Shown here: positions 1,881 to 17,150 of the stretch, one piece after another
Numbering within the stretch: position 1 is the first letter of the stretch
Layout of the letters: each line of letters starts with the position of its first letter
Source: a virus
Length of the DNA stretch: 24,473 bases
IMG/VR virus record: IMGVR_UViG_3300042549_010983
Location: 1 to 24,473 of that record
Direction: 5' to 3' (one strand)
Notes under the pieces: model-generated
The model's database searches: none
The model's input: only the letters and a program-made list of their open reading frames with translations
Told to the model about the DNA's origin: nothing
Translations under genes and position numbers: made by a program

Positions 1881-4800
1881 ATGAAATTTATAAAACAAAG
1901 TTCGATAAATAACGTACTGGATGAAGCTCGCATTTTTGACGTTATTTCAGCATCAGAAGAACTCAAGAAAAAAGGAACACACTATTTTTGTTTGTCGCCA
2001 TTTTCGGGCGAAAAAGGAACGCCTAGTTTTTGTGTGAATACCGTAAAAAATAGCTACTTCGATTATTCATCAGGTTTCGGAGGCAACGCGGTTAATTTTT
2101 TAATGAGACGGCATTCCATTGGGTTTTTTGACGCTATTGAAAAAGCAGCTGCCATTTGCAACATTACGCTGGACTATGAAGAGCAATCCGAGGATGCTAA
2201 AAAAATCAACGACGAATTTCTGTTGATGAAAAAGTTGGTGGATTTCGCTTCCGAAAAATACCAAATTGCCTATCACAAATTACCTGCTGAACATTGGGCA
2301 AAAGAACTTTTGTTGAAGGATCGGGCATTTACAGAAGAAACAATTCAGCAATTCGAAATTGGTTTCGCTCCAAATGAATCAAGCTATATTTCAACGCCTG
2401 TAATTAACAACGGAAATTTTGAAGTAGCCAAAACTTTGGGTTACACAATTACCAAGGACGGTGCTTCCTATGATTTTTTCAGAAACCGTATTATGTTTCC
2501 TATCCACAACGATCGTGGTGATATCGTTGGATTTGGCGGTCGCAGATCAAACCTAGAAGCAGATGAAAAGTTTGCTAAATACATGAATTCTAAAGAATCA
2601 AAATTGTATTTAAAAGACAAAGTTTTGTTTGGACTTTGGCAAGCCAAAAAGACAATTGTTGCATCTGGAAAAGCAGTTTTGAACGAAGGATATACCGATG
2701 TAATCGCTTTGCATCAAAATGAAGTTACCAATTCCGTAGCAAGTTGCGGAACGGCTTTCACCGAGTATCAGGCTAAATTATTGGGCCGTTATTGCAAACA
2801 CGCGATTTTGTTTCGCGATGGAGATACAGCAGGAACCAAGGCCGCTCACCGGGACCTCAATATTTTGCTTAAAGAAGGTTTTAAAGTTGAAATTGTAGTT
2901 TGTCCTGCAGGCGACGATCCAGATAGTTTGGCGCGAAAAACCAACATCAATGCTTTTATCGAAAAAAATAAAGAGGATGCCATCCTTTGGCGTGCCAAAG
3001 TTTTGCAACAGCAAACCATTAACCCTGAGTTGGTACTTCTCGAGAAAACATTGCGCGAAAACTTGGACAAGGAAATCGAGGATTTAAGATCCAGAATGAT
3101 TACCGACGAAGCAATGGAGTCATTGAATGCCATGGATAAGAAGTTTGCAAAAACTGAAAACTTAAAACTTTTCAAGGAGATTCAAAGTCTGGAAAAACAA
3201 ATGATGCAGCAGCTGTCTGATTTTCCAAAATACGAACCTCGCTTGGTTTCTGAAGCGGTAGAAGCAATGGCCAATACTTTGCATTTGATTCCCAACAAAA
3301 TCGCGCAAAAAGAGTACGTTAAAATGGTTTCTAAAATTTTAGATCAGAAACCAAAAGTAATTGAAGACATCATCAAATACAACGAAGACGAAGAGGAACG
3401 CGACAGAAAAGAGAAAGGCAAAAATCAAGAGAAAAAAGAGTATGAAGTTCTGGGTTTGCCAGAAGGAGCTGACAAGGATCAGTTTTTAACCGATCGTTTC
3501 TGCGAAATTGGTAATGCCTACTACTTCAGAAAAGAAAGTGGTTTTATGAAAGGTACCAACTTTCGAGTGGTTCCATTATTTCACGTAGAAGGCCGTCAAG
3601 ATAACAAACGCCTTTGTGAAGTAATAAATGAACTGGGACACAAACGTCTTATTGATTTTGAATCCACTGATTTAATCAATTTTACAAAATTCAAGGAACG
3701 CTTGATCATGGAAGGTTTCTTTTTCTTTGAACCAGGAACGTCTGTAAATGATTTTCAATTGATAGCTAAAAAGCTTTTGAACGACTTTATCACGGCTACG
3801 GAATTGAAAATATTAGGCCACCAAAAAGAAGGTTTCTTTGCTTTTGCCGACGGTATTTTTCACATGAATAGCTTTCACAAAGTCAATAAATATGGCATTG
3901 TAAACCTTGAAGGCCTTGAAAAAGGAGACAGCGAATACCGTAACGACATCACGCACTTTTATTCTCCATCGCATTCAGAAATATACAAGTCAGCGCGTGA
4001 AGATGATGACCCGTTCGAAAATGACCGTCATTTTGTGTATAAAATCGCTCCAATATCTCTGGATCAGTGGATGAGCCAAATGGTGAAAGTTTTTGGAGAC
4101 AGAGGCAGGCTTGGAGTTGCTTTTGCCATAGCGGCCAATTTTAGAGACTTGTTTTTGAAACATTACAACTACTTCACATTATTTGGCGGATTTGGTCAAA
4201 AAGACAGCGGGAAATCTGGTTTCGGAAGTTGCCTTCAGGCTTTCTTTTATTACGATTTGAACCCGTTGGAACTCAATACTTCCACTCTGGTAGGATTGGC
4301 CAGAAGATTAACCAGATGCAAAAACACAATTGTTTTCTGCGACGAAATGCGGGACGATATTGACGAAGCAATGCACCAAACGCTTAAAGGATCTTGGAAC
4401 GGAATAGGTCGTGAAAAAGGAAAGGGATTTGACAGTAACCGAACGTCGGTTGATAAAATAAATTCTGCAGTTTATTATTCCGGTCAGTATCTACCAACCC
4501 GCGACGATGGAGCTTTACCTTCAAGATCGGTGATTGCCAATTTCGAAAACAAAGAATTTACCACGCAGGAAAAGGAAGAGTACGGAAAATTGATTGCTTG
4601 GAACAAAATAGGCATCAGCTCTTTTGTATTGGATGTTATTCGGCACCGTGATTTTGTAACCCAAAATTTAACCAAGTATTACAACGAAGTACAAAAGGAA
4701 ATGAAAATTGCTTTAAAAGACCTTGAGTATCAGAACCGAGTTTTTGACGACTACATGATTCTCCTGGTGATTGTAAAAATGTTTGAAGACAAATTTAATT

Positions 4801-5312
4801 TCCCTTATAAATACACAGACTTTTTCAAACTGGTGCGTGAGAGTATTTTGGATAATTCCGAAACCATTACAGACACCGACGGTTTGGCTGCTTTCTGGCG
4901 CGTTATTGAATATTTGGCCACTACAACAATTCAACGCTCGATCGAGCAAGGTAGAGACTACGAAATTGAACGTGTGGGAACATTTGAATTTATACCAAAA
5001 AAAGGATCTAAGGAAGTTTACAAAAATAAAAATGGAGACAAAATTTTGTTTCTGCATTTTTCTAAAGTCCACCAGGATTACCACAAAGAAGTTTCTAAAC
5101 GTCAAGGCGAAGAAGTCATTGGAGCAACCACAATTAGGAATTATTTAAAATCAAAAAAATACTTCATCGGATTGTTTGCCTCTCGCAGAATTGGCGATAA
5201 ATGCACATCAGGATATGCTTTCAATTATTCCATGATGGAGCGAATGAATATTTTGAATTTGCCAGACGCAAATAACGATCAGTTAGACATTGATTTACCA
5301 GAAGGATTTTAA
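1881..5312 (+). CDS. Phage DNA primase-ATPase fusion (DnaG-like, TOPRIM)
   Basis: This 1143-residue replication protein likely makes primers and has ATPase or helicase activity at the phage fork. The N-terminus is a CHC2-type module with degenerate zinc ligands: positions matching the DnaG cysteines are Asp61 and Ser64, and the CPFH motif is SPFS. Residues 200-222 (FRNRIMFPI and onward) match the DnaG catalytic core. TOPRIM acidic motifs follow: EGYTD at 269-273 and DGDTAG at 313-318, then GDDPD (344-348). A charged linker (~480-530) leads to a C-terminal P-loop ATPase with Walker A GQKDSGKS (772-779) and Walker B FCDE (819-822). It is far longer than bacterial DnaG (~600), consistent with a primase-helicase fusion. 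The primase call is secure; calling the C-terminal part a helicase is inference. Confidence 0.88.
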   Translation: MKFIKQSSINNVLDEARIFDVISASEELKKKGTHYFCLSPFSGEKGTPSFCVNTVKNSYFDYSSGFGGNAVNFLMRRHSIGFFDAIEKAAAICNITLDYEEQSEDAKKINDEFLLMKKLVDFASEKYQIAYHKLPAEHWAKELLLKDRAFTEETIQQFEIGFAPNESSYISTPVINNGNFEVAKTLGYTITKDGASYDFFRNRIMFPIHNDRGDIVGFGGRRSNLEADEKFAKYMNSKESKLYLKDKVLFGLWQAKKTIVASGKAVLNEGYTDVIALHQNEVTNSVASCGTAFTEYQAKLLGRYCKHAILFRDGDTAGTKAAHRDLNILLKEGFKVEIVVCPAGDDPDSLARKTNINAFIEKNKEDAILWRAKVLQQQTINPELVLLEKTLRENLDKEIEDLRSRMITDEAMESLNAMDKKFAKTENLKLFKEIQSLEKQMMQQLSDFPKYEPRLVSEAVEAMANTLHLIPNKIAQKEYVKMVSKILDQKPKVIEDIIKYNEDEEERDRKEKGKNQEKKEYEVLGLPEGADKDQFLTDRFCEIGNAYYFRKESGFMKGTNFRVVPLFHVEGRQDNKRLCEVINELGHKRLIDFESTDLINFTKFKERLIMEGFFFFEPGTSVNDFQLIAKKLLNDFITATELKILGHQKEGFFAFADGIFHMNSFHKVNKYGIVNLEGLEKGDSEYRNDITHFYSPSHSEIYKSAREDDDPFENDRHFVYKIAPISLDQWMSQMVKVFGDRGRLGVAFAIAANFRDLFLKHYNYFTLFGGFGQKDSGKSGFGSCLQAFFYYDLNPLELNTSTLVGLARRLTRCKNTIVFCDEMRDDIDEAMHQTLKGSWNGIGREKGKGFDSNRTSVDKINSAVYYSGQYLPTRDDGALPSRSVIANFENKEFTTQEKEEYGKLIAWNKIGISSFVLDVIRHRDFVTQNLTKYYNEVQKEMKIALKDLEYQNRVFDDYMILLVIVKMFEDKFNFPYKYTDFFKLVRESILDNSETITDTDGLAAFWRVIEYLATTTIQRSIEQGRDYEIERVGTFEFIPKKGSKEVYKNKNGDKILFLHFSKVHQDYHKEVSKRQGEEVIGATTIRNYLKSKKYFIGLFASRRIGDKCTSGYAFNYSMMERMNILNLPDANNDQLDIDLPEGF

Positions 5313-5330
5313 ACCCTAAAACCCAAACCG

Positions 5331-5615
5331 ATGGACCACAAAGAATTTTCAAAATATTTTAAAGCTTGTGAAGATGCCAATATCTCGATTTATCCGAAGC
5401 CTAGCAATGTAGCCAGATATAAAATTATCATCAACACCCGCGGGAAGGAAAAGGAGGGGTCTGAATTTTACCAGGACAAAGAATCCAGTAAAAATGTAGT
5501 TATAAAAACAACCAAAGGGCTGGTAAATGTTTCTCAAAAAGTGCCATCGGTTTGGGACAAAATAAGAGAGTTGTACAAAGAAATATGTATAAAAAATAAA
5601 TTATTAGAATTATGA
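5331..5615 (+). CDS. Unknown small basic protein
   Basis: A 94-residue lysine-rich protein 18 nt after the primase. The middle has beta-type segments (ARYKIIINTRGK, KNVVIKTTKGLVNVSQ) and the C-terminus looks helical. I do not recognise a family. Its stop overlaps the next start by ATGA (5612-5615), so it belongs to the same translationally coupled cluster. High positive charge is compatible with nucleic-acid contact but proves nothing. Confidence 0.65.
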   Translation: MDHKEFSKYFKACEDANISIYPKPSNVARYKIIINTRGKEKEGSEFYQDKESSKNVVIKTTKGLVNVSQKVPSVWDKIRELYKEICIKNKLLEL

Positions 5616-5896
5616 AAAAAGTAATATGGAAAGTCCTAGTACCTCAAAAAACGAGTTCACTATTAAAACTACCAAAAGGAGCTGAAATCCAATCCGTTCA
5701 AAAACAATATGAAACGATTTGCCTTTGGGCATTGGTGGATCCTAAAGAAGAAAAAATCGAAGAACGATTAATTCAGGTTTTTAGCAAAGGTGAATCTGTC
5801 CCAGAAAATCAGCAAGCACGGAGGATTCACATCGGTACCGTTGCTTTGAAAAATGAAACAATCATACTCAATGTCTTTGAGACCATTTTAAATTAA
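5612..5896 (+). CDS. DUF7352-like phage protein
   Basis: This 94-residue protein begins with IWKVLVPQKTSSLLKLPKGAEI and continues through ICLWALVDP to the C-terminal segment HIGTVALKNETIILNVFE. This pattern matches the small phage DUF7352 family, in which a predicted beta fold has conserved Leu-Pro-Lys-Gly-Ala and Leu-Trp-Ala-Leu-Val-Asp motifs. Function of the family is unknown. It overlaps the preceding gene by ATGA and precedes the DNA-binding-type DUF3127 gene by two genes. Family recall is from memory, not a search. Confidence 0.65.
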   Translation: MKKVIWKVLVPQKTSSLLKLPKGAEIQSVQKQYETICLWALVDPKEEKIEERLIQVFSKGESVPENQQARRIHIGTVALKNETIILNVFETILN

Positions 5897-5904
5897 ATAT
5901 AAAT

Positions 5905-5923
5905 TAAAATCATTTAGCGATGA
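5905..5923 (+). repeat. Repeated 19-nt translation leader, copy 2
   Basis: Exact copy of 881-899, again placing the gene start (ATG at 5920) at the same offset inside the repeat. Confidence 0.6.
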
Positions 5924-6180
5924 ACGTAACCAAAACCATTCCCTTGCTTTTTCGGAAAGAAGTGAAAACATCAAAGGCTTTCCAGAAATTATCCAGTTTT
6001 CAAAAAGCCATCTATGGCACAGGACAAAACATAAGAGGCATCCAAAACGGACTTCTTACTGCAAAAAACCTCGGTATTAACCGCTGGCGCGAAATCTCTG
6101 GCAACTGCCATGTTAACTCCGAAATCATTGAGGAGTTGTATTTAAATCAAATAGAAGTTCAAGTATCAATTATTAAGTAA
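5920..6180 (+). CDS. Unknown small basic early protein
   Basis: An 86-residue protein, basic in its first half and helical overall, with a possible HTH-like stretch around residues 42-75 (LLTAKNLGINRWREISG). I cannot assign it confidently to a regulator family. Its start lies in the 19-nt leader it shares with the LuxR-type regulator at 896, hinting at common translational control. It sits 13 nt before the DUF3127 gene. Confidence 0.6.
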   Translation: MNVTKTIPLLFRKEVKTSKAFQKLSSFQKAIYGTGQNIRGIQNGLLTAKNLGINRWREISGNCHVNSEIIEELYLNQIEVQVSIIK

Positions 6181-6193
6181 ACAAACAATTATT

Positions 6194-6472
6194 ATGGCTA
6201 TTACAGCAGTTATCAAAAGAATTTTAGACACCAAAACAGTTGGTGCAAACGGTTTCGAAACTCGTGAGATTCACGTTACTACCGAAGAGCAATATGCTCA
6301 AACATTATCGATCAATTTTAATCAAGGTAAGGTTTCGCTTCTGGACAACTTTAAACCAGGACAAAAAGTAAAAATTGAAGTAAACCTCAAAGGCCGTGAG
6401 TGGACCAACCCACAAGGCGAAATAGTTGTTTTCAATACCATTGAAGGGTGGAAAATTGAGCCAGTTGTATAA
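6194..6472 (+). CDS. DUF3127 OB-fold protein, likely ssDNA-binding
   Basis: This 92-residue protein shows the DUF3127 pattern of Bacteroidetes: GANGFETREIHVTTEEQYAQ near residues 17-36, FKPGQKVKIEVNLKGREW around 53-70, and FNTIEGWKIEP at the end. DUF3127 proteins are predicted OB folds related to single-strand DNA binding proteins. Placement after the primase fits a phage single-strand binding role at the replication fork. Family assignment is confident; DNA binding is inferred from fold prediction and context. Confidence 0.8.
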   Translation: MAITAVIKRILDTKTVGANGFETREIHVTTEEQYAQTLSINFNQGKVSLLDNFKPGQKVKIEVNLKGREWTNPQGEIVVFNTIEGWKIEPVV

Positions 6473-6489
6473 TCCTAAGTTTTAGAATC

Positions 6490-6777
6490 ATGAAAAAATT
6501 ATTATTTCTATTGTTAGCTACTGTGTTAGCTACAGCACAGGACACCATTAAAAGTGTAAAGTCTACCAACATCCGAACGCACACAGTTACCGGATATGTG
6601 GTGCAGCAAATCGTAGGAACTGACACGACCTACTATCGTGTAGAAAACTTCACTAATTTGCCAAAGGATATCAAAGTAAACCGAAAGGATCCTATCAAAA
6701 ATTACCCTAAATCCCTGCTAAAAAAAGGGGAGGTGTACATGAACCACAAACGGTCGAATGTTAGAGGGGTAAGGTAA
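6490..6777 (+). CDS. Small exported protein, unknown
   Basis: A 95-residue protein with a clear N-terminal signal peptide (MKKLLFLLLATVLATAQ), with probable cleavage near residue 16-17 and no lipobox cysteine. The mature part is ~78 residues, basic and apparently beta-rich, with no family I recognise. An exported protein inside a replication operon is unusual. Small exported phage proteins can block superinfection or alter the envelope, but nothing in the sequence proves such a role here. Confidence 0.65.
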   Translation: MKKLLFLLLATVLATAQDTIKSVKSTNIRTHTVTGYVVQQIVGTDTTYYRVENFTNLPKDIKVNRKDPIKNYPKSLLKKGEVYMNHKRSNVRGVR

Positions 6778-6858
6778 AATTAAAAGATTGGCGACCGTTT
6801 TAATGTTGCCAAGCTCGATTTATCAAAAAAAATTAATCACTAAAAAATCACAACAAAA

Positions 6859-7218
6859 ATGGCACTAAAAAAATACAGAGTAGAAGTAACCCGTGTGGAT
6901 GAATACATTATAGAAATCGACACGGATGTTTGGAACGAAGGACTTATTCAGCAATTCAATGATAGTATTTACGAATCAGAAGATGCTGAAGATATTGCTA
7001 AGCATTTAGCAACATCCATTTCCTGTCAAGGAAAAGCAGAATGGATGGAAGGATTTGGATATGTGAAACAAAGATTTCACAGAATGGAAAAAGGAGAATT
7101 GCTCGATCAATATAAACCAGGAAGAATTAAAGTTTCTGAAGATGATTATTATCCTGGACTAATGGTCGAAATCAATGCTTATGATGAAGATCTACAAGCC
7201 ATATCTTTAAGTATGTAA
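6859..7218 (+). CDS. Unknown acidic protein; first gene of the cassette array
   Basis: A 119-residue acidic protein beginning with a beta-strand pattern (KKYRVEVTRVDEYIIEIDTDVW), then a helical part with EDAEDIAKHLATSI, then GFGYVKQRF. I have a weak recollection of similar unnamed Bacteroidetes proteins. The stop codon TAA at 7216-7218 is also the start of the TAAC of the first attC-like site, as is common for integron cassette genes. The upstream cassette boundary cannot be found: the expected complement of GTATGTAAC is absent before 6859. Confidence 0.65.
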   Translation: MALKKYRVEVTRVDEYIIEIDTDVWNEGLIQQFNDSIYESEDAEDIAKHLATSISCQGKAEWMEGFGYVKQRFHRMEKGELLDQYKPGRIKVSEDDYYPGLMVEINAYDEDLQAISLSM

Positions 7219-7348
7219 CGTTCGGCGGATAATTGTAGTCAGTAGCGTGCTGACACAAAACTATCATCGGAGTAAACACCGATAAAACCAAAAAAACGCA
7301 AAACATTAAATTAAACAACAATCAAGCTATTGCTACAATTATATGTTA
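7216..7348 (+). repeat. attC-like site 1
   Basis: The outer arms TAAC (7216-7219) and GTTA (7345-7348) enclose inner arms ATAATTGTAG (7229-7238) and CTACAATTAT (7333-7342), exact reverse complements. The inner pairing extends through CAGTAGC (7240-7246) and GCTATTG (7326-7332) with one bulged base and one G-T wobble. Left spacer is 9 nt and right spacer 2 nt. This R''-L''-L'-R' layout with asymmetric spacers is that of an integron attC site. The loop holds two smaller stems (GTCAG/CTGAC and ATCGG/CCGAT). Confidence 0.7.
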
Positions 7349-7663
7349 GTGATAGTTTATTTAAACAAATAAAATGGAATCACCAAAAATAACTTTAGAT
7401 ATTGAAGTTTATGAGATTTACGGAGAAGGCTATTTTGCTCAATGCAAATACTTAGTACACGCGTATAACGATGTTTTATGGACGAATGATTTAGACGAAG
7501 CAATGTCTTTTTTACGAGATTCTCTTGTGAATTATCACTAACGCTCGGTCGCTTTGTCTAGTGGCGTAATTTAAGACTAGACTTCGCAAAAATAAACTAA
7601 CATTAAATTTAAAAATTATGATTTCAGATAATACCCAAGCCAAGCCATTAGACAAAACGGCTG
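7346..7663 (+). mobile_element. Integron-type gene cassette A
   Basis: A 318-bp unit containing one ORF and its own attC-like site (site 2). Its 5' end with the flanking G, GTTAGTGATA (7345-7354), is the exact reverse complement of TATCACTAAC (7533-7542), the R'' end of its own attC. Integron cassettes show this relation because a circular cassette joins these ends. The ORF stop TAA lies within R''. No integrase is present. The seventh-base consensus GTTRRRY is only partly met (GTTAGTG). Confidence 0.65.
7374..7541 (+). CDS. Cassette A gene, unknown 55-aa protein
   Basis: A 55-residue acidic protein with aromatic-rich beta-type segments (VYEIYGEGYFAQCKYLVHAY) and a C-terminal helix (DLDEAMSFLRDSLV). 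It is the sole ORF of cassette A, starts 28 nt inside the cassette, and its TAA stop is the TAA of the attC R'' box. I recognise no family; cassette genes commonly encode small unknown proteins. Confidence 0.6.
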   Translation: MESPKITLDIEVYEIYGEGYFAQCKYLVHAYNDVLWTNDLDEAMSFLRDSLVNYH

Positions 7664-7666
7664 TTA
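7539..7666 (+). repeat. attC-like site 2
   Basis: TAAC (7539-7542) and GTTA (7663-7666) are the outer arms. The inner arms TTTGTCTAGTGGC (7553-7565) and GCCATTAGACAAA (7644-7656) pair over 13 positions with one G-T wobble. Spacers are 10 nt on the left and 6 nt on the right. The left arm starts TAACGCTCGGT, closely matching TAACGTTCGGC of site 1, so the two sites belong to one family though their inner arms differ in sequence, as in integron arrays. Confidence 0.72.
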
Positions 7667-7881
7667 GCACTCGTTTTTTTTTCGTATGCACAATGGGGAA
7701 AAATCCAAACGGGACAATAGGATTTAACAATTTCGATATTCAAACTACATACGGACATCCAGCATTTAGAAGGTGTATTGAACTTTCAAATGAAAAGTTT
7801 CCGAATATGTACGAAGTAACTTTGATTAGCATTTCAGAAATATCTGCCGAAGATTGGAAGGTATTTGTGTCGGAGCAATAA
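7618..7881 (+). CDS. Cassette B gene, unknown 87-aa protein
   Basis: The best ORF of cassette B. The ATG at 7618 lies inside attC-like site 2, upstream of the predicted cassette boundary at 7664, so its first ~15 codons come from the neighbouring cassette's attC. An alternative ATG at 7693 would give 62 residues but would drop the hydrophobic strand RFFFVCT, which looks like part of the fold. A T9 run at 7674-7682 lies at the junction and could hide or cause a frameshift. The protein contains TYGHPAFRR and ends ISAEDWKVFVSEQ. Function is unknown. Confidence 0.55.
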   Translation: MISDNTQAKPLDKTAVSTRFFFVCTMGKNPNGTIGFNNFDIQTTYGHPAFRRCIELSNEKFPNMYEVTLISISEISAEDWKVFVSEQ

Positions 7882-7892
7882 TGAGTGCTAAC
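7664..7892 (+). mobile_element. Gene cassette B with incomplete attC
   Basis: GTTAGCACTC at 7663-7672 is the exact reverse complement of GAGTGCTAAC at 7883-7892, the same cassette-end relation as in cassette A. Only the left R'' end of its attC is seen; no matching inner arm or closing GTTA was found before 8290. The right end of the array therefore seems truncated, and 7892 is a minimum boundary. Confidence 0.5.
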
Positions 7893-7915
7893 TCTCTAAC
7901 ACCCGCTATTAACTT

Positions 7916-8288: not shown

Positions 8289-8987
8289 ATGAAAACTAAA
8301 TTTCACCCAATACTATTTTCTACCCCGATGGTTCAAGCTTTGCTCGATGGCAGAAAAACGCAGACCAGAAGAGTTGTAAAAAAGAAGTATTCTAATACAG
8401 ATCTGACATGGAAAGAAATTCATTCTGGAAAAACAAAAATACTAGTGGAACTTCAAAATGATGTTCCTGCACCTGTAAAAAACGAAAATGGAACAACTAC
8501 TCACAGACTTAGAGCTTATCACGTATCTGAATGTCCTTACAAAGTAGGCGATGTTCTCTGGGTTCGCGAAACGTTCTACGAGTGCGAAGCTCCAAAACTC
8601 AAAGGCGATTTTATTTACAAAGCTTCAAACGATGAAGGTTGGGAGTTGAAATGGAAACCCTCCATCTTCATGCCTAAACCTGCCTGCCGTATTTTTTTAA
8701 AAATAAAAAGTATTCGTGTAGAGCGATTGCAGGAAATCAGTGAGAGCGATGCTATTGCGGAAGGAATAATAGAAATTTTACCACAGATGTATCCACAGTA
8801 TAGAGAATGGAAGAACTATATAAACCCATGTAATCCACACGGATACAAATCAGATTATAATAATCCAATTAATTCTTTCAAGTCTTTATGGCAATCCATC
8901 AACGGCAAAGACTCTTGGAACGTCAATCCATTCGTGTGGGTTTATGAGTTTGAGCAAATCGAAAAACCTAATGATTTTATAGTATGA
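8289..8987 (+). CDS. ASCH/PUA-like domain phage protein
   Basis: This 232-residue protein begins HPILFSTPMVQALLDGRKTQTRRV and includes YKVGDVLWVRETFYE, the signature of ASCH-domain proteins common in phages. ASCH is a beta-barrel related to PUA domains and is thought to bind RNA or modified nucleotides. The later part contains IKSIRVERLQEISESDAIAEGI and WNVNPFVWVYEFE, also typical of the phage family. It starts 2 nt after the membrane-protein gene and overlaps the next gene by ATGA. The domain call is strong; the biological role is not established. Confidence 0.82.
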   Translation: MKTKFHPILFSTPMVQALLDGRKTQTRRVVKKKYSNTDLTWKEIHSGKTKILVELQNDVPAPVKNENGTTTHRLRAYHVSECPYKVGDVLWVRETFYECEAPKLKGDFIYKASNDEGWELKWKPSIFMPKPACRIFLKIKSIRVERLQEISESDAIAEGIIEILPQMYPQYREWKNYINPCNPHGYKSDYNNPINSFKSLWQSINGKDSWNVNPFVWVYEFEQIEKPNDFIV

Positions 8988-9223
8988 GCCTTGATGTCCA
9001 AAGCAAGTTTGATACCTTAAACTCCTTGATAAACGAAACTTCCGGAACTGGTTTTTACATGTACTGCAACGGCAGTTTTTGGACAATTGCAATAACAAAA
9101 TCAGGGTTTAGAGTTTACGGTACTATTGAAGATGTACTGGATAAAACGATAACAGAAATTAAACAGAATAGGATTGTGAGGCAAACAGCCAAACCAACGT
9201 ATAAAAAATTTATTTATTCATAA
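8984..9223 (+). CDS. Unknown 79-aa protein, end of early operon
   Basis: A small protein of unknown family, translationally coupled to the ASCH gene (ATGA at 8984-8987). Beta-type segments GTGFYMYCNGSFWTIAIT and GFRVYGTIEDVL are visible, with a basic C-terminus. A terminator follows 31 nt after its stop, marking the end of the early transcription unit. Confidence 0.6.
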   Translation: MSLDVQSKFDTLNSLINETSGTGFYMYCNGSFWTIAITKSGFRVYGTIEDVLDKTITEIKQNRIVRQTAKPTYKKFIYS

Positions 9224-9253
9224 GAATGATTCTAGATCAAATTCATAACCAAT

Positions 9254-9277
9254 CCACTCTATTCGAGTGGTTTTTTT
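9254..9277 (+). terminator. Rho-independent terminator ending the early operon
   Basis: CCACTC (9254-9259) and GAGTGG (9265-9270) form a 6-bp stem with loop TATTC, followed by seven T residues. Confidence 0.75.
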
Positions 9278-9279
9278 AT

Positions 9280-9431
9280 TTTCCCCCGCACCCCGAAATT
9301 AAAAAGATATTGCCAGAATGTTGAGCAGTTGAGTAGTTGACCCAACGAATAGCAATCATTACCGGGTACCGTTCAGCAGTTACACAACTAAAGTTTCAAT
9401 TGTAGCGTTTTACCTATTTCCCCCGCACCCC
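9280..9431 (+). repeat. Pair of C-rich direct repeats
   Basis: TTTCCCCCGCACCCC occurs exactly at 9280-9294 and 9417-9431, each followed by a similar A-rich stretch ending GATAT or GTAT. The pair encloses degenerate GTTGA and GTTCA repeats. The C tract stands out in this AT-rich DNA. Confidence 0.6.
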
Positions 9432-9683
9432 CTAAATAAAAAAAGTATGCGAAAGATAGAGCGGGCAAAATCCAAGTAATAAAAGGTTCAACAGTTCAAC
9501 AGTTCAACATATATTATACAATTATTTGATTTATTGTATTTTAACTCAATAAATCAATACTTTGAATTTGTTGAACTTGTTGAACCTTTTCTTGAGGTTC
9601 CAACAAAACAAGGGTATTTTCAACAGGTTCAACGGGGTTTTTAATACTAATGTTTTGATTTTCATTATGTTGAACTGTTGAAC
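9320..9683. repeat. Iteron-like heptamer cluster, candidate replication origin
   Basis: GTTCAAC or its complement GTTGAAC occurs exactly at 9486, 9494, 9502, 9570, 9579, 9627, 9669 and 9677. Degenerate copies on the same 8-bp period lie at 9320/9328/9336 and 9371/9379. The three forward copies (from 9486) face two reverse copies (to 9585) across an AT-rich core, a layout typical of iteron origins. No gene lies in 9224-9763. The alternative is an operator or partition site. Confidence 0.6.
9481..9590. repeat. Nested inverted repeat within the iteron region
   Basis: The outer arms 9481-9501 and 9569-9590 are reverse complements apart from one extra base; each holds two heptamers plus an A4GG or CCT4 end. 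Inside them TTGATTTATTG (9526-9536) and CAATAAATCAA (9547-9557) form a perfect 11-bp stem with a 10-nt loop. The enclosed DNA is nearly all A/T and could unwind or extrude. Confidence 0.65.
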
Positions 9684-9713
9684 CAAAAATTTAAAAAAAC
9701 ATACATTTTTTAC

Positions 9714-9725
9714 TGTATATTTGTG
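9714..9725 (+). promoter_or_regulatory. Promoter -7 element before the 9764 gene
   Basis: TGTATATTTGTG contains TATATTTG (9716-9723) and repeats the early-promoter string at 519-530. No TTG lies at the expected -33 position, so an activator may be needed. It is 38 nt before the start at 9764. Confidence 0.5.
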
Positions 9726-9763
9726 TTTTAAAATTCTTTTTCAAAAAAAAAATACATAAATCT

Positions 9764-10201
9764 ATGAGTGATAAAGCGGTTGTAGTAATCAATTTTCCTG
9801 TTAAGCCTCACGTGTATAAGTATTTGCAAAGTAAAGTGGGCGAAAAGCTTGTGGCCAGTGCCGGTAATTTCTTTGGAGCGACGGTTCTGGATATTTTAAG
9901 TAAGCGGTATTCCGATTATCAGGCCGTTTCTGAAGAGATCACTTTCCCAGTAGAAATTTCATTTCGCTATATGGGGACCCATGGGATTTATATCGATCAG
10001 CGGATTGTGAGAAAATTCAACAATCGGATGGATGATATGTTTAGAGAAGAGATGCGATCGCATGTTTCCATCAGTCATTCTCAATATCATATTGCGAAAG
10101 ACGAATCGCTTCGCCAATTTCTATTTTCATACAATATTTCCGAAGACGATATCAAGTTTGAAACGTTGAAAAAAGACATCGGTCGAAACTTAAAAAAGTA
10201 A
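9764..10201 (+). CDS. Conserved Bacteroidetes phage protein, unknown
   Basis: This 145-residue protein contains VVVINFPVKPHVYKYLQSKVG near the N-terminus, then RYMGTHGIYID, KFNNRMDDMFREEM and a charged C-terminus. I recall unnamed Bacteroidetes phage proteins with this layout but no known function. It is the first gene downstream of the iteron region and has a TATATTTG promoter. That would suit an origin-binding or regulatory protein, but no DNA-binding motif can be pointed out. It is monocistronic or leads the late region. Confidence 0.65.
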   Translation: MSDKAVVVINFPVKPHVYKYLQSKVGEKLVASAGNFFGATVLDILSKRYSDYQAVSEEITFPVEISFRYMGTHGIYIDQRIVRKFNNRMDDMFREEMRSHVSISHSQYHIAKDESLRQFLFSYNISEDDIKFETLKKDIGRNLKK

Positions 10202-12146: not shown

Positions 12147-13145
12147 ATGTCTGTAAACATTGACCAGGTATTAAACGAAACCATTCGTTTTAAAGATCAG
12201 AATCCTGCGATTCTGAACGGAATGATTATGTCAAGCGAGATTCTTTTGAATCGTTTGGCACGATTGGTTCCCAAAATCAGAGGCGAATTTGCTTCTGTAA
12301 ATAGTGTGATGGGGCACGTGGTTCAGCAATTTTCTGCAACATGGACTGAAACTGCCGATGTTCAATTTCGTGGAAAACAGTTGAAAAACTACCACCAGAA
12401 AGTAAACTTCGCATTTACGCCTGCTGAAATCTTAGGATCTTGGATTGAGCAAAAGTATGATGAAGGTGTGGAATTGAAAGACAAATCAATTTCTAAGCAC
12501 GTGATGACTATGCTTAAAGCAAAAGTGATCAGTGATGTAAATATTCTATCTGTTACGGGAGTATACAACGCGGCTACTCCAACGGTTTTTGGTGCTTCGA
12601 TGAACGGTTTGAACAAAATTCACACGGATTTATTGGCAAACACCGTAAATCCATGTTTCAAAATTCCAACCGATGCCATCGATGCTACAAACATCCTTGA
12701 TGTTGTTTTGGAGTTTGAAAAAGGAATTCCGGAAGCGGCTAAGGATTTGACAAAAGCTATTTTAATGAGTACTACAAATGCTCAGAATTACAAATTGCTT
12801 TACGAAGATACCTTTGGCAAAAACACCGATTATAAAGGTGAAAAAGGAATGCGCACCCGATTAGGAGAGCGTATGATTATTGCCGTTCCTAGAATGAGCA
12901 ATAATGTTATTGCTGCAACTTTTGACGGTAACTTGATACGTCTTATTGACGTGGTTGAGAATCCTGGTACCATTACCGACGTGCAAAAACTTGATTATAA
13001 AATCAAAGTTTTTGGAGAATTTACACTTGGTTACGACTATGCTGTGAATGAACTAGTGTTTTTGAACGATGCTGTGGGTGAAACCAGAGGATTAGGCAAT
13101 GCTGCTTTGAATAAATTGTATTACCCAGAAGAAGTTCTGGCTTAA
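12147..13145 (+). CDS. Major capsid protein (HK97-like, probable)
   Basis: This 332-residue protein immediately follows the protease-scaffold gene. It has a helical N-terminus (~1-60), a mixed central domain, and a C-terminal part with RLGERMIIAVPRMSNNVIAATFDGNLIRLIDVVE and KVFGEFTLGYDYAVNELVFLND, which resembles the late beta segments of phage coat proteins. Length fits HK97-fold capsids (~280-400). Position beside the protease is the strongest evidence. A cleavage site for the protease is not evident. Confidence 0.75.
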   Translation: MSVNIDQVLNETIRFKDQNPAILNGMIMSSEILLNRLARLVPKIRGEFASVNSVMGHVVQQFSATWTETADVQFRGKQLKNYHQKVNFAFTPAEILGSWIEQKYDEGVELKDKSISKHVMTMLKAKVISDVNILSVTGVYNAATPTVFGASMNGLNKIHTDLLANTVNPCFKIPTDAIDATNILDVVLEFEKGIPEAAKDLTKAILMSTTNAQNYKLLYEDTFGKNTDYKGEKGMRTRLGERMIIAVPRMSNNVIAATFDGNLIRLIDVVENPGTITDVQKLDYKIKVFGEFTLGYDYAVNELVFLNDAVGETRGLGNAALNKLYYPEEVLA

Positions 13146-13693: not shown

Positions 13694-14254
13694 ATGGCTT
13701 GTTTTGATGAAATACCAGTAGAAGATTTAGATGCATGCATCAATGCTGAAGTACAGGCGGGAATTTCAGAAGTAGGAGTACACTATGCTGTGCATCCTCA
13801 AATTGTAGATTTTCCAATGCCTTTAAATTATGGAGAAGCTTTATATTCTTATGATACTGCAGTAGCAGTTAATGAAGATATCGAGTTTCAGGCCACAAAG
13901 GGTTTTGGTAAAATTACCATTATGCCAGACTCTGGTGAGGTGAAGGTGGATATTGTGGGCAATAAAGGAAACAAAAAAACCAAATGTACTTTCGGTTTTT
14001 CAATTTCTGGAAACAACAAAAAAGCATTAGGCTTTATGCGTACGCACAAAAATACACCAATGGTGTTTTGTGTAACCGAACGCGACGGAACCAAGCGTTT
14101 GATTGGTGACAAATTCAATCCTGCTTACATTGTTGAAGGTGCAGCCACTACCGGAAAAGGTGGTGAAGACGATAAGATGATCAACTTTAGTTTTGAATCT
14201 TACTGTGTGCCTATTGTTTACACTGGAGTTATCCAGGAACCTACAGTTGTGTAA
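13694..14254 (+). CDS. Putative virion structural protein
   Basis: This 186-residue, mostly beta protein has segments FGKITIMPDSGEVKVDIVG, ALGFMRTHKNTPMVFCVTERDGTKRLIGD and a C-terminal SFESYCVPIVYTGVI. The pattern and ATG-TAA coupling with the next gene fit a phage structural protein in the head or tail-tube group. I cannot decide between a decoration protein and a tail tube. Its stop and the next start overlap by one base (TAATG). Confidence 0.55.
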   Translation: MACFDEIPVEDLDACINAEVQAGISEVGVHYAVHPQIVDFPMPLNYGEALYSYDTAVAVNEDIEFQATKGFGKITIMPDSGEVKVDIVGNKGNKKTKCTFGFSISGNNKKALGFMRTHKNTPMVFCVTERDGTKRLIGDKFNPAYIVEGAATTGKGGEDDKMINFSFESYCVPIVYTGVIQEPTVV

Positions 14255-15820: not shown

Positions 15821-17150
15821 TTTATTATTAGCTCCACTTGAATGGACCACAGAAAAAAGGAAAGTTAAAGACTTAATTCCTTACGAATACAATCCCAGAA
15901 TGCTATCTGAAACCAAAAAACAGAAGCTTCGCGATTCTCTAGAAAAATTTAACCTTGCCGAAATTCCTGCAATCAATACCGACAATATAATTATTGCCGG
16001 ACATCAGCGCGTTTTGGTTTTGATGGAAATAGGTCGAGGCGATGAACTTATTGACGTTCGGGTACCAAACCGTGAACTCACTGAGCAAGAATTTAAGGAG
16101 TACAACATTCGCTCTAATGTTGCCGTGGGAGATTGGGACATTGATATTTTGAACACTATTTTTGACGATATCGATTTGATGTCGTTGGGTTTAAATGTAG
16201 ATGAAATTCAACTTCCAGAAGATACCTTGCCGGCTCACATGCAGGAGGAAAGCGAGAGTGATTTTGATCCAGAACCACCAAAGGATCCAATATCAGTTTT
16301 GGGCGATGTTTATGAGTTTCGTTCTTTGCAAAAGAAATTAGTGCACCGCATTGTTTGTGGTGATTCCACCGCACCAGAAGTATATGCTTCGCTTTTGCAA
16401 AACGAACAATTTCAGTTATTGGTGACAGATCCACCGTATAACATCAACTATGAAGGCGGTACGAAGGACAAATTGAAAATTATGAACGATAACATGTCAT
16501 CGGATGACTTTTATACTTTTCTATATGGATTTTATAGAGAGTGTTTTTTGAATGCGGTTCCTGGTGCAGCGATCTATGTTTTTCATGCAGATACAGAAGG
16601 AATCAATTTCCGAAAAGCGTTGAAAGATGCGGGTTTCAAATTGTCGCAATGTTTGGTTTGGTTAAAGAATTCCATTGTTATGGGTAGGCAGGATTATCAA
16701 TGGAAACACGAACCTTGTTTGCAGGGCGAAGTACCGGTACCGGAACCAGAACCACTAACGCATGAACCTGTGCTTTATGGATGGAAAGAAGGCGCGGCCC
16801 ACAATTGGTATTCCGACAGAAAGCAAACCACTATTTTAGAATTTTCACGGCCGTTTCGAAGTAAAGAGCATCCAACAATGAAGCCTTTGGACATGATTGT
16901 TTACTTAATTAAAAACAGTTCGAAGCAAAGGGAAATTGTAGGCGACAGTTTCTCCGGTTCTGGCACCACTTTAATAGCGTGCGAGATCTCCTGGAGACAA
17001 GCTCGCGTTATCGAACTGGATCCAAGATTTGTTGATGTGAATGTAAACCGGTACATCAAATACATGCGGGAAAACCATTTACAGTTTGAAGTTTTGAAAA
17101 ATGGACAGATTTTGTCCAAAATTGAAATGGATGGTTTTTTTGTGAAGTAA
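15813..17150 (+). CDS. ParB-like/N6-adenine or N4-cytosine DNA methyltransferase
   Basis: This 445-residue fusion likely methylates phage DNA, protecting it from host restriction or marking it. Residues ~18-110 form a ParB/Srx-like domain with GHQR at 63-66. The methylase domain has the catalytic motif DPPY at 206-209 before the AdoMet motif SGSGTT at 381-386, the order of beta-class enzymes. KEHPTMKPLDMIVYLI and ARVIELDPRFVDV complete the fold. An extra ~18-residue Pro/Glu-rich segment (302-316) separates two HEP tripeptides (299-301, 317-319), where relatives normally run straight through HEP-LYGW. It overlaps the previous gene by 8 nt. Confidence 0.88.
   Translation: MNNLLLAPLEWTTEKRKVKDLIPYEYNPRMLSETKKQKLRDSLEKFNLAEIPAINTDNIIIAGHQRVLVLMEIGRGDELIDVRVPNRELTEQEFKEYNIRSNVAVGDWDIDILNTIFDDIDLMSLGLNVDEIQLPEDTLPAHMQEESESDFDPEPPKDPISVLGDVYEFRSLQKKLVHRIVCGDSTAPEVYASLLQNEQFQLLVTDPPYNINYEGGTKDKLKIMNDNMSSDDFYTFLYGFYRECFLNAVPGAAIYVFHADTEGINFRKALKDAGFKLSQCLVWLKNSIVMGRQDYQWKHEPCLQGEVPVPEPEPLTHEPVLYGWKEGAAHNWYSDRKQTTILEFSRPFRSKEHPTMKPLDMIVYLIKNSSKQREIVGDSFSGSGTTLIACEISWRQARVIELDPRFVDVNVNRYIKYMRENHLQFEVLKNGQILSKIEMDGFFVK

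Follow-up and report, generated by a model that had tools for sequence, protein, structure and literature searches.

Phage-borne gene cassettes are not a new idea. Qi et al. (2023; PMC9892861) reported that virulent phages, Polaribacter phage P12002L among them, carry CALINs, and that IntI1 recombined five of the six tested virulent-phage sites with attI1. Like the locus described here, these CALINs have attC-like sites, small genes and orphan methyltransferases, and no integrase. In contrast to what we describe below, gene inversion and natural relocation of units are not known to us from that study, and the word "Flavobacterium" does not occur in its main text. Treponema-type integrons, in which intI is transcribed toward attI, are the second system for comparison (PMC3607928). 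A review places Bacteroidota among the integron-bearing phyla (PMC8618304), and attC models have been built for 11 taxa, none of which is Bacteroidota (PMC8352920).

The window analyzed here is a stretch of viral DNA of 24,473 nt. The initial annotation had found integron-type recombination sites with small cassette-like genes and no integrase in it, and regarded this as a feature not described in Bacteroidetes phages. The CALIN-like character was upheld, with two sites and no PF00589 match in a 24-kb record that may be a fragment. The claim of novelty holds in part: phage CALINs are published (PMC9892861), while no paper describing the integrase type, the inverted cassettes or the relocation in phages was found in the open-access, non-preprint literature searched. 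We consider it very probable that two units in this segment form an array of an integron type found in Bacteroidota, and that a host tyrosine recombinase moves them.

Recombination sites of the window and their family in Bacteroidota

The two sites are present with the arms claimed for them. Site 1 lies at 7216..7348 and site 2 at 7539..7666, and the canonical strand of both is the minus strand. The inner arms of site 1 are ATAATTGTAG (7229-7238) and CTACAATTAT (7333-7342), and those of site 2 are CGCTTTGTCTAGTGGC (7550-7565) and GCCATTAGACAAAACG (7644-7659). In site 1, the R'' box is the reverse complement of 7345-7348 and the R' crossover box is that of 7216-7219, which would be cut as TAA|C at 7218/7219. 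The corresponding cut in site 2 would fall at 7541/7542.

A covariance model built from 36 bacterial sites and no phage sites scored site 2 at 62.8 bits (E 3.7e-11) and site 1 at 29.0 bits (E 2.8e-4). The third-best match in the window reached only 11.1 bits. The window was also scanned for the layout (TAACG, a spacer of about 5 nt, inner arm, loop, second inner arm, a spacer of about 1 nt, GTTA), and sites 1 and 2 were the sole matches; a locally shuffled control of 744 kb gave 2 matches in the same scan. Energy folding of single DNA sequences gave z-scores of -2 to 0 for the window sites and by itself would have missed both of them, and an Rfam search returned no match. Site 1 belongs to the family as a weak member, with 29 bits and with 9 and 2 nt separating its outer from its inner boxes. 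Over 121 nt it shares 82% identity with a site of the lillamy group of Flavobacterium phages, where a different gene follows, and site 2 is 76% identical by blastn to a site of the mumin/filifjonk phages. The blastn matches in phage genomes were almost confined to the sites, and the flanking genes differed on both sides. A plasmid search by blastn with site 1 gave chance matches only.

The window sites belong to a large attC-like family of Bacteroidota. A pattern scan of bacterial genomes found at least 120 loci, and among those listed nearly all are from Bacteroidota. Many of the listed loci carry several sites on one strand, and the site length in them is sharply set at about 126 nt. Sites with E 1e-6 or better were found in 160 of 199 sampled Flavobacterium genomes; such genome counts, here and below, vary with the thresholds and with the sample drawn. 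In 36 diverse host sites, compensatory two-sided changes were observed in 17 of the 18 inner-stem pairs, and the covariation score was 0.576 compared to 0.03-0.08 for slid structures. Phage sites reached 97 bits under the model trained on the 36 host sites only. Moreover, the two ends of a unit were complementary over a run of at least 5 nt in 79% of units compared to 2% of random pairings, while the two ends of one site were complementary in only 6%. Such a pattern is expected if closing a unit into a circle rebuilds a full hairpin.

The sites share the attC hairpin, with two nested pairs of boxes, variable sequence and conserved structure. They depart from the classical form in the boxes and spacers. 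R' boxes fitting GTTRRRY were found in 3% of phage sites and 7% of host sites, so the classical GTTRRRY/RYYYAAC pair is mostly absent, and the host consensus spacers are 1 nt and 5 nt in place of 5-6 nt on both sides. The GTTA core is present in every site by the detection rule. Of the initial attC assignment, the integron-type site stands and the canonical attC does not.

Integrase and attI in host arrays

In 20 site-bearing genomes, the best match to the integron-integrase HMM was mostly a recombinase other than XerC or XerD, and in several of these genomes it adjoined an array. Ten of these recombinases were aligned, and the alignment was then used to search genomes. The integrase gene was found in 91 of the 199 Flavobacterium genomes; among 149 genomes sampled from the class, 73 had it. 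Strand and position were tallied by eye at 40 integrase loci. At 36 of them, sites lay downstream on the strand of the integrase within about 9 kb. Among 156 sites, 153 were downstream on the same strand, 3 were upstream on the same strand, and none was on the opposite strand. Three of the four loci without sites were near contig ends, and the other had a divergent integrase. Furthermore, an attI box, TAAC|TWGTWTATA, was located 97-131 nt after the integrase stop, at the point where the first unit ends, in all 17 loci with an identifiable end of the first unit. A tyrosine recombinase and an attI thus adjoin the host arrays as they do in an integron.

The array-linked protein keeps the catalytic residues of tyrosine recombinases. 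In the alignment to VchIntIA, residues at about 187-245 were unmatched, which means that the IntI-specific domain is absent, and the score against TIGR02249 was 181-213 bits, below the cut-off of 265. The enzyme therefore lacks both the domain and the curated family score of an integron integrase. NF040815 (XerA-type recombinase/integron integrase), a broad family name, was the best or second-best NCBIfam family of the array-linked enzyme with 200-229 bits (cut-off 220); a linkage of NF040815 to Bacteroidota arrays was not found in the literature searched. The host arrays have an integron architecture in the order of Treponema-type integrons (integrase, attI, gene, attC, with the genes in the integrase direction), minus the IntI-specific domain and GTTRRRY. 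Unlike in the Treponema type, the integrase has no IntI-specific stretch and stays below the cut-off for integron integrases, the boxes keep only GTTA, and the spacers are 1 and 5 nt. We are not aware of any assay of recombination by an integrase from Bacteroidota.

In Flavobacterium sp. LMO8, a host strain from the same Baltic study as the phages compared below, we counted 35 sites; it also encodes a relative of the integrase, and a site follows shortly downstream of that gene. The mumin and lillamy phages have LMO6 and LMO9 as hosts. LMO6 was sought via its prophage laban6-1, and there was no match among 399 genomes. A PF00589 search of the window, in agreement with the initial annotation, and of the mumin9-1 and lillamy9-1 records found no tyrosine recombinase. 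Since the phage records have none, the enzyme is probably supplied by the host.

On balance, we favor the wider reading that there is a widespread class of Bacteroidota integrons with a XerA-like recombinase lacking the IntI domain, and that phages have evolved mirror-image cassettes which use the host enzyme in trans to reshuffle genes between infections. If this is right, a gene-capture system that is very common in Flavobacterium and its relatives falls outside the usual definition of integron integrases, and virulent phages parasitise the integron system of their hosts to trade genes. It would also provide a new enzyme, attI and set of sites for studying the origin of integrons from Xer-like recombinases. 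In addition, plasmid NZ_CP041688.1 of Chryseobacterium sp. SNU WT5 encodes a 52% identical integrase at 16041-17075, and integrons with this type of integrase may travel on plasmids too.

Crossover box and movement of units in Baltic phages

Sixteen isolates of Baltic Flavobacterium phages were compared. Close isolates differ from TAAC box to TAAC box, and the joints share only 4-7 nt, TAAC(G)(TT). In lillamy9-7, a 440-nt unit is gone from the interior of the array and present at the array end beside TACAATATTACATG, while lillamy9-1 shows the reverse state. The relocated unit is 100% identical, and no scar was left. In 48 of 54 partly matching site-context pairs, the change was at the 5' TAAC and the site stayed with the following gene; the other 6 went against this rule, two of them indicating the 3' box. 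These pairs were drawn from 50 distinct site contexts and are not independent, and the counts are not probabilities. The 5' TAAC box is the same box that faces attI in the host arrays. Clean presence or absence of units, which the initial annotation had proposed to look for in close relatives, was observed in sister phages, with the ends at the 5' TAAC and not at the 3' GTTA. A crossover at the 3' GTTA, tried as a candidate, was dropped after this comparison. Filifjonk9-1 (5271-5344) and sniff9-1 (near 4289) each have the left flank and the site in common with their counterparts while the right flank differs, a breakpoint on the 3' GTTA side that is contrary to the general rule.

IntI is known to insert cassettes into non-attI sites, termed attG. 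The phage insertion points likewise need little beyond G|TTA, whereas the repeated use of one phage array end is more like attI than like scattered attG sites.

The phage junctions bear directly on the reading of the initial annotation, an ordinary CALIN with canonical attC sites, in which cassettes of gene plus attC are cut at the 3' GTTA and moved by a classical IntI. The crossover maps to the 5' TAAC and contradicts it, GTTRRRY occurs in just 3-7% of the boxes, and the linked integrase scores under the integron-integrase cut-off without the IntI-specific stretch. We therefore regard this reading as improbable, although it would explain the TAAC/GTTA arms, the hairpin layout and the stops in TAAC, and although published phage CALINs have attC sites that work with IntI1 (PMC9892861).

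Exchange at the short and conserved TAACGTT, by homologous recombination of the phage or of the host or by switching of templates, could also give joints with 4-7 nt of TAAC(G)(TT) in common. The hairpins would then be merely terminators or leaders of moron-like genes, in keeping with the start codon of the next gene that half of the long phage sites carry. We give this explanation little chance, since it does not predict structure-preserving covariation, end complementarity that is set per unit and not per site, the linkage with a host integrase and attI, or the clean relocation of a unit to the array end. Passive single-strand transposon units (IS200/IS605 or REP type) that a Y1 transposase would mobilise, and which also have hairpins, insert beside a tetranucleotide and need no terminal gene, are hardly credible here, because a tyrosine recombinase gene and an attI box adjoin the arrays and the outer boxes are mutually complementary and unit-specific.

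Movement by a host integrase of the array-linked type would proceed as follows. Each unit consists of an attC-like hairpin site and one gene, with TAA|C boxes at both ends. In the excised circle, base pairing of the unit ends along about 10 nt would close the outer stem. The enzyme, a tyrosine recombinase of host origin that has no counterpart in the window, probably recognises the single strand in its folded form, here the minus strand, and would cut it at G|TTA, which the plus strand shows as TAA|C. Units would be inserted or removed most often at the attI-like array end. The sequences themselves show how the sites are built, the unit ends, the crossover box, the integrase linkage in hosts, the inversion, and the gain, loss and relocation of units in sister phages. 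We infer this acting enzyme, the single-stranded substrate and such movement of the window's own units from the host arrays and the sister phages.

The arrays of Baltic Flavobacterium phages are rich in orphan DNA methyltransferases, and differences in plating on LMO6 have been linked to the presence or absence of one methyltransferase (PMC7077304). If the account is right, cassette exchange would be the route of methyltransferase gain and loss behind these differences. The phages would gain a plug-in system for swapping small genes, e.g. DNA methyltransferases, and would be a natural case, open to testing, in which cassettes move in a virus.

Gene orientation and units of the window

Read in the orientation of the site, the gene was on the plus strand in 21 of 22 viral units and on the minus strand in 66 of 80 host units, and 8 of the 14 host exceptions came from a single locus, L119. 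In the integrase-linked host units, 45 genes were minus and 1 was plus, i.e. 1 of 46 was phage-like. The site is accordingly at the 3' end of the gene in 45 of these 46 units, and 5' of the gene in phages. The possibility that host genes face their sites in the phage way was ruled out, since the host ORFs are opposite. By this comparison of sequences, phage cassette genes are inverted relative to host cassettes. The inversion lets the cassette genes be read along with the phage operon; the crossover box can then coincide with the stop of the previous gene, and the site is upstream of its own gene, often supplying the start codon. An in-frame start codon within the site, running into the next gene, was found in 27 of 54 long phage sites compared to 18 of 203 host sites. 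The 3' arm of such phage sites encodes a polar leader at the N terminus, such as MISDNTQAKPLDKTAVS; with a start codon in the loop and a coding 3' arm, the recombination site would be partly translated. Sites of this kind were seen in the window (7618-7666) and in loci L002 (filifjonk9-1), L003, L059, L075, L079, L080, L082, and others. L119 itself (3572-7912, Flavobacterium caseinilyticum) is a nine-site array with phage gene orientation and phage-like small genes, and judged by its genes it looks like a prophage array within the chromosome.

In the window, the 119-aa gene at 6859..7218 (plus strand) has its stop TAA inside the first crossover box. It has a weak match to a PHROG of unknown function, and the covariance model scored no site upstream of it. 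It would be either part of the phage backbone or an older cassette whose site is gone. Unit 1 (7219..7541, 323 nt, plus strand) comprises site 1 and a 55-aa gene at 7374..7541, the stop TAA of which falls inside the site 2 box; the initial statement that stop codons lie in the TAAC boxes was thus correct for both genes. The ends of unit 1, GTTAGTGATA and TATCACTAAC, are self-complementary. Unit 2 (7542..7891, 350 nt, plus strand) comprises site 2 and a gene at 7618..7881, which has 87 aa from an in-frame ATG at 7618 in the site 2 loop, a possible start codon, or 62 aa from the ATG at 7693. Family searches with the products of the two cassette genes gave no match.

The complementarity of unit ends is a point that the initial annotation had missed. 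GTTAGTGATAGTT (from 7345) pairs with AATTATCACTAAC (to 7542) and GTTAGCACTC (from 7663) pairs with GAGTGCTAAC (to 7892), over 13 and 10 nt, respectively. Each is a single-gene unit, and circularisation of its ends restores one complete site, as in a gene cassette. The pairing of GTTAGCACTC with GAGTGCTAAC points to a third box at 7889-7892, the end of the array. This array-end box (7883..7892, plus strand) is complementary to the start of unit 2, is followed by non-site sequence, and is analogous to the attI-like end of Flavobacterium phage arrays, which is TTATAAC|TACAATATT in mumin and lillamy. Unit ends at the 3' GTTA (7345/7346 and 7663/7664), with a unit of gene plus following site, had been proposed initially and are contradicted by the host attI junctions and by the insertion and deletion differences of the phages. 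By analogy with these, the crossovers of the window would be at the 5' TAAC (7218/7219, 7541/7542 and 7891/7892), and the unit would be a site plus the following gene.

Among syntenic relatives of the window, the closest is a prophage of a Flavobacterium genome, with a 71% identical primase; in this prophage, the interval from the gene for the single-strand binding protein to the 8289-8987 homologue has no site. The window primase had no relative in viral_contigs, and a like search with the gene 6859-7218 gave one weak relative. Among close relatives in the collections searched, none has a site at 7218/7219 or 7891/7892 that is exactly empty, so the boundaries of the window's own units rest on analogy.

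P12002L has short TAACG..GTTA hairpins of 56-58 nt at 38035-38090 and 38879-38936 (13035-13090 and 13879-13936 of the extracted locus L321). The host-site covariance model gave these candidate sites no score. They may be the ones that Qi et al. tested with IntI1, published as attC1 and attC2. The hairpins adjoin methyltransferase-type genes, and the unit ends are complementary. In the window, an AT-rich, gene-free stretch at 9485-9586 has repeated GTTCAACA units facing TGTTGAAC-like copies. The surrounding segment, 9223-9764, holds a hairpin or iteron-like region with an 11-bit covariance match at chance level.
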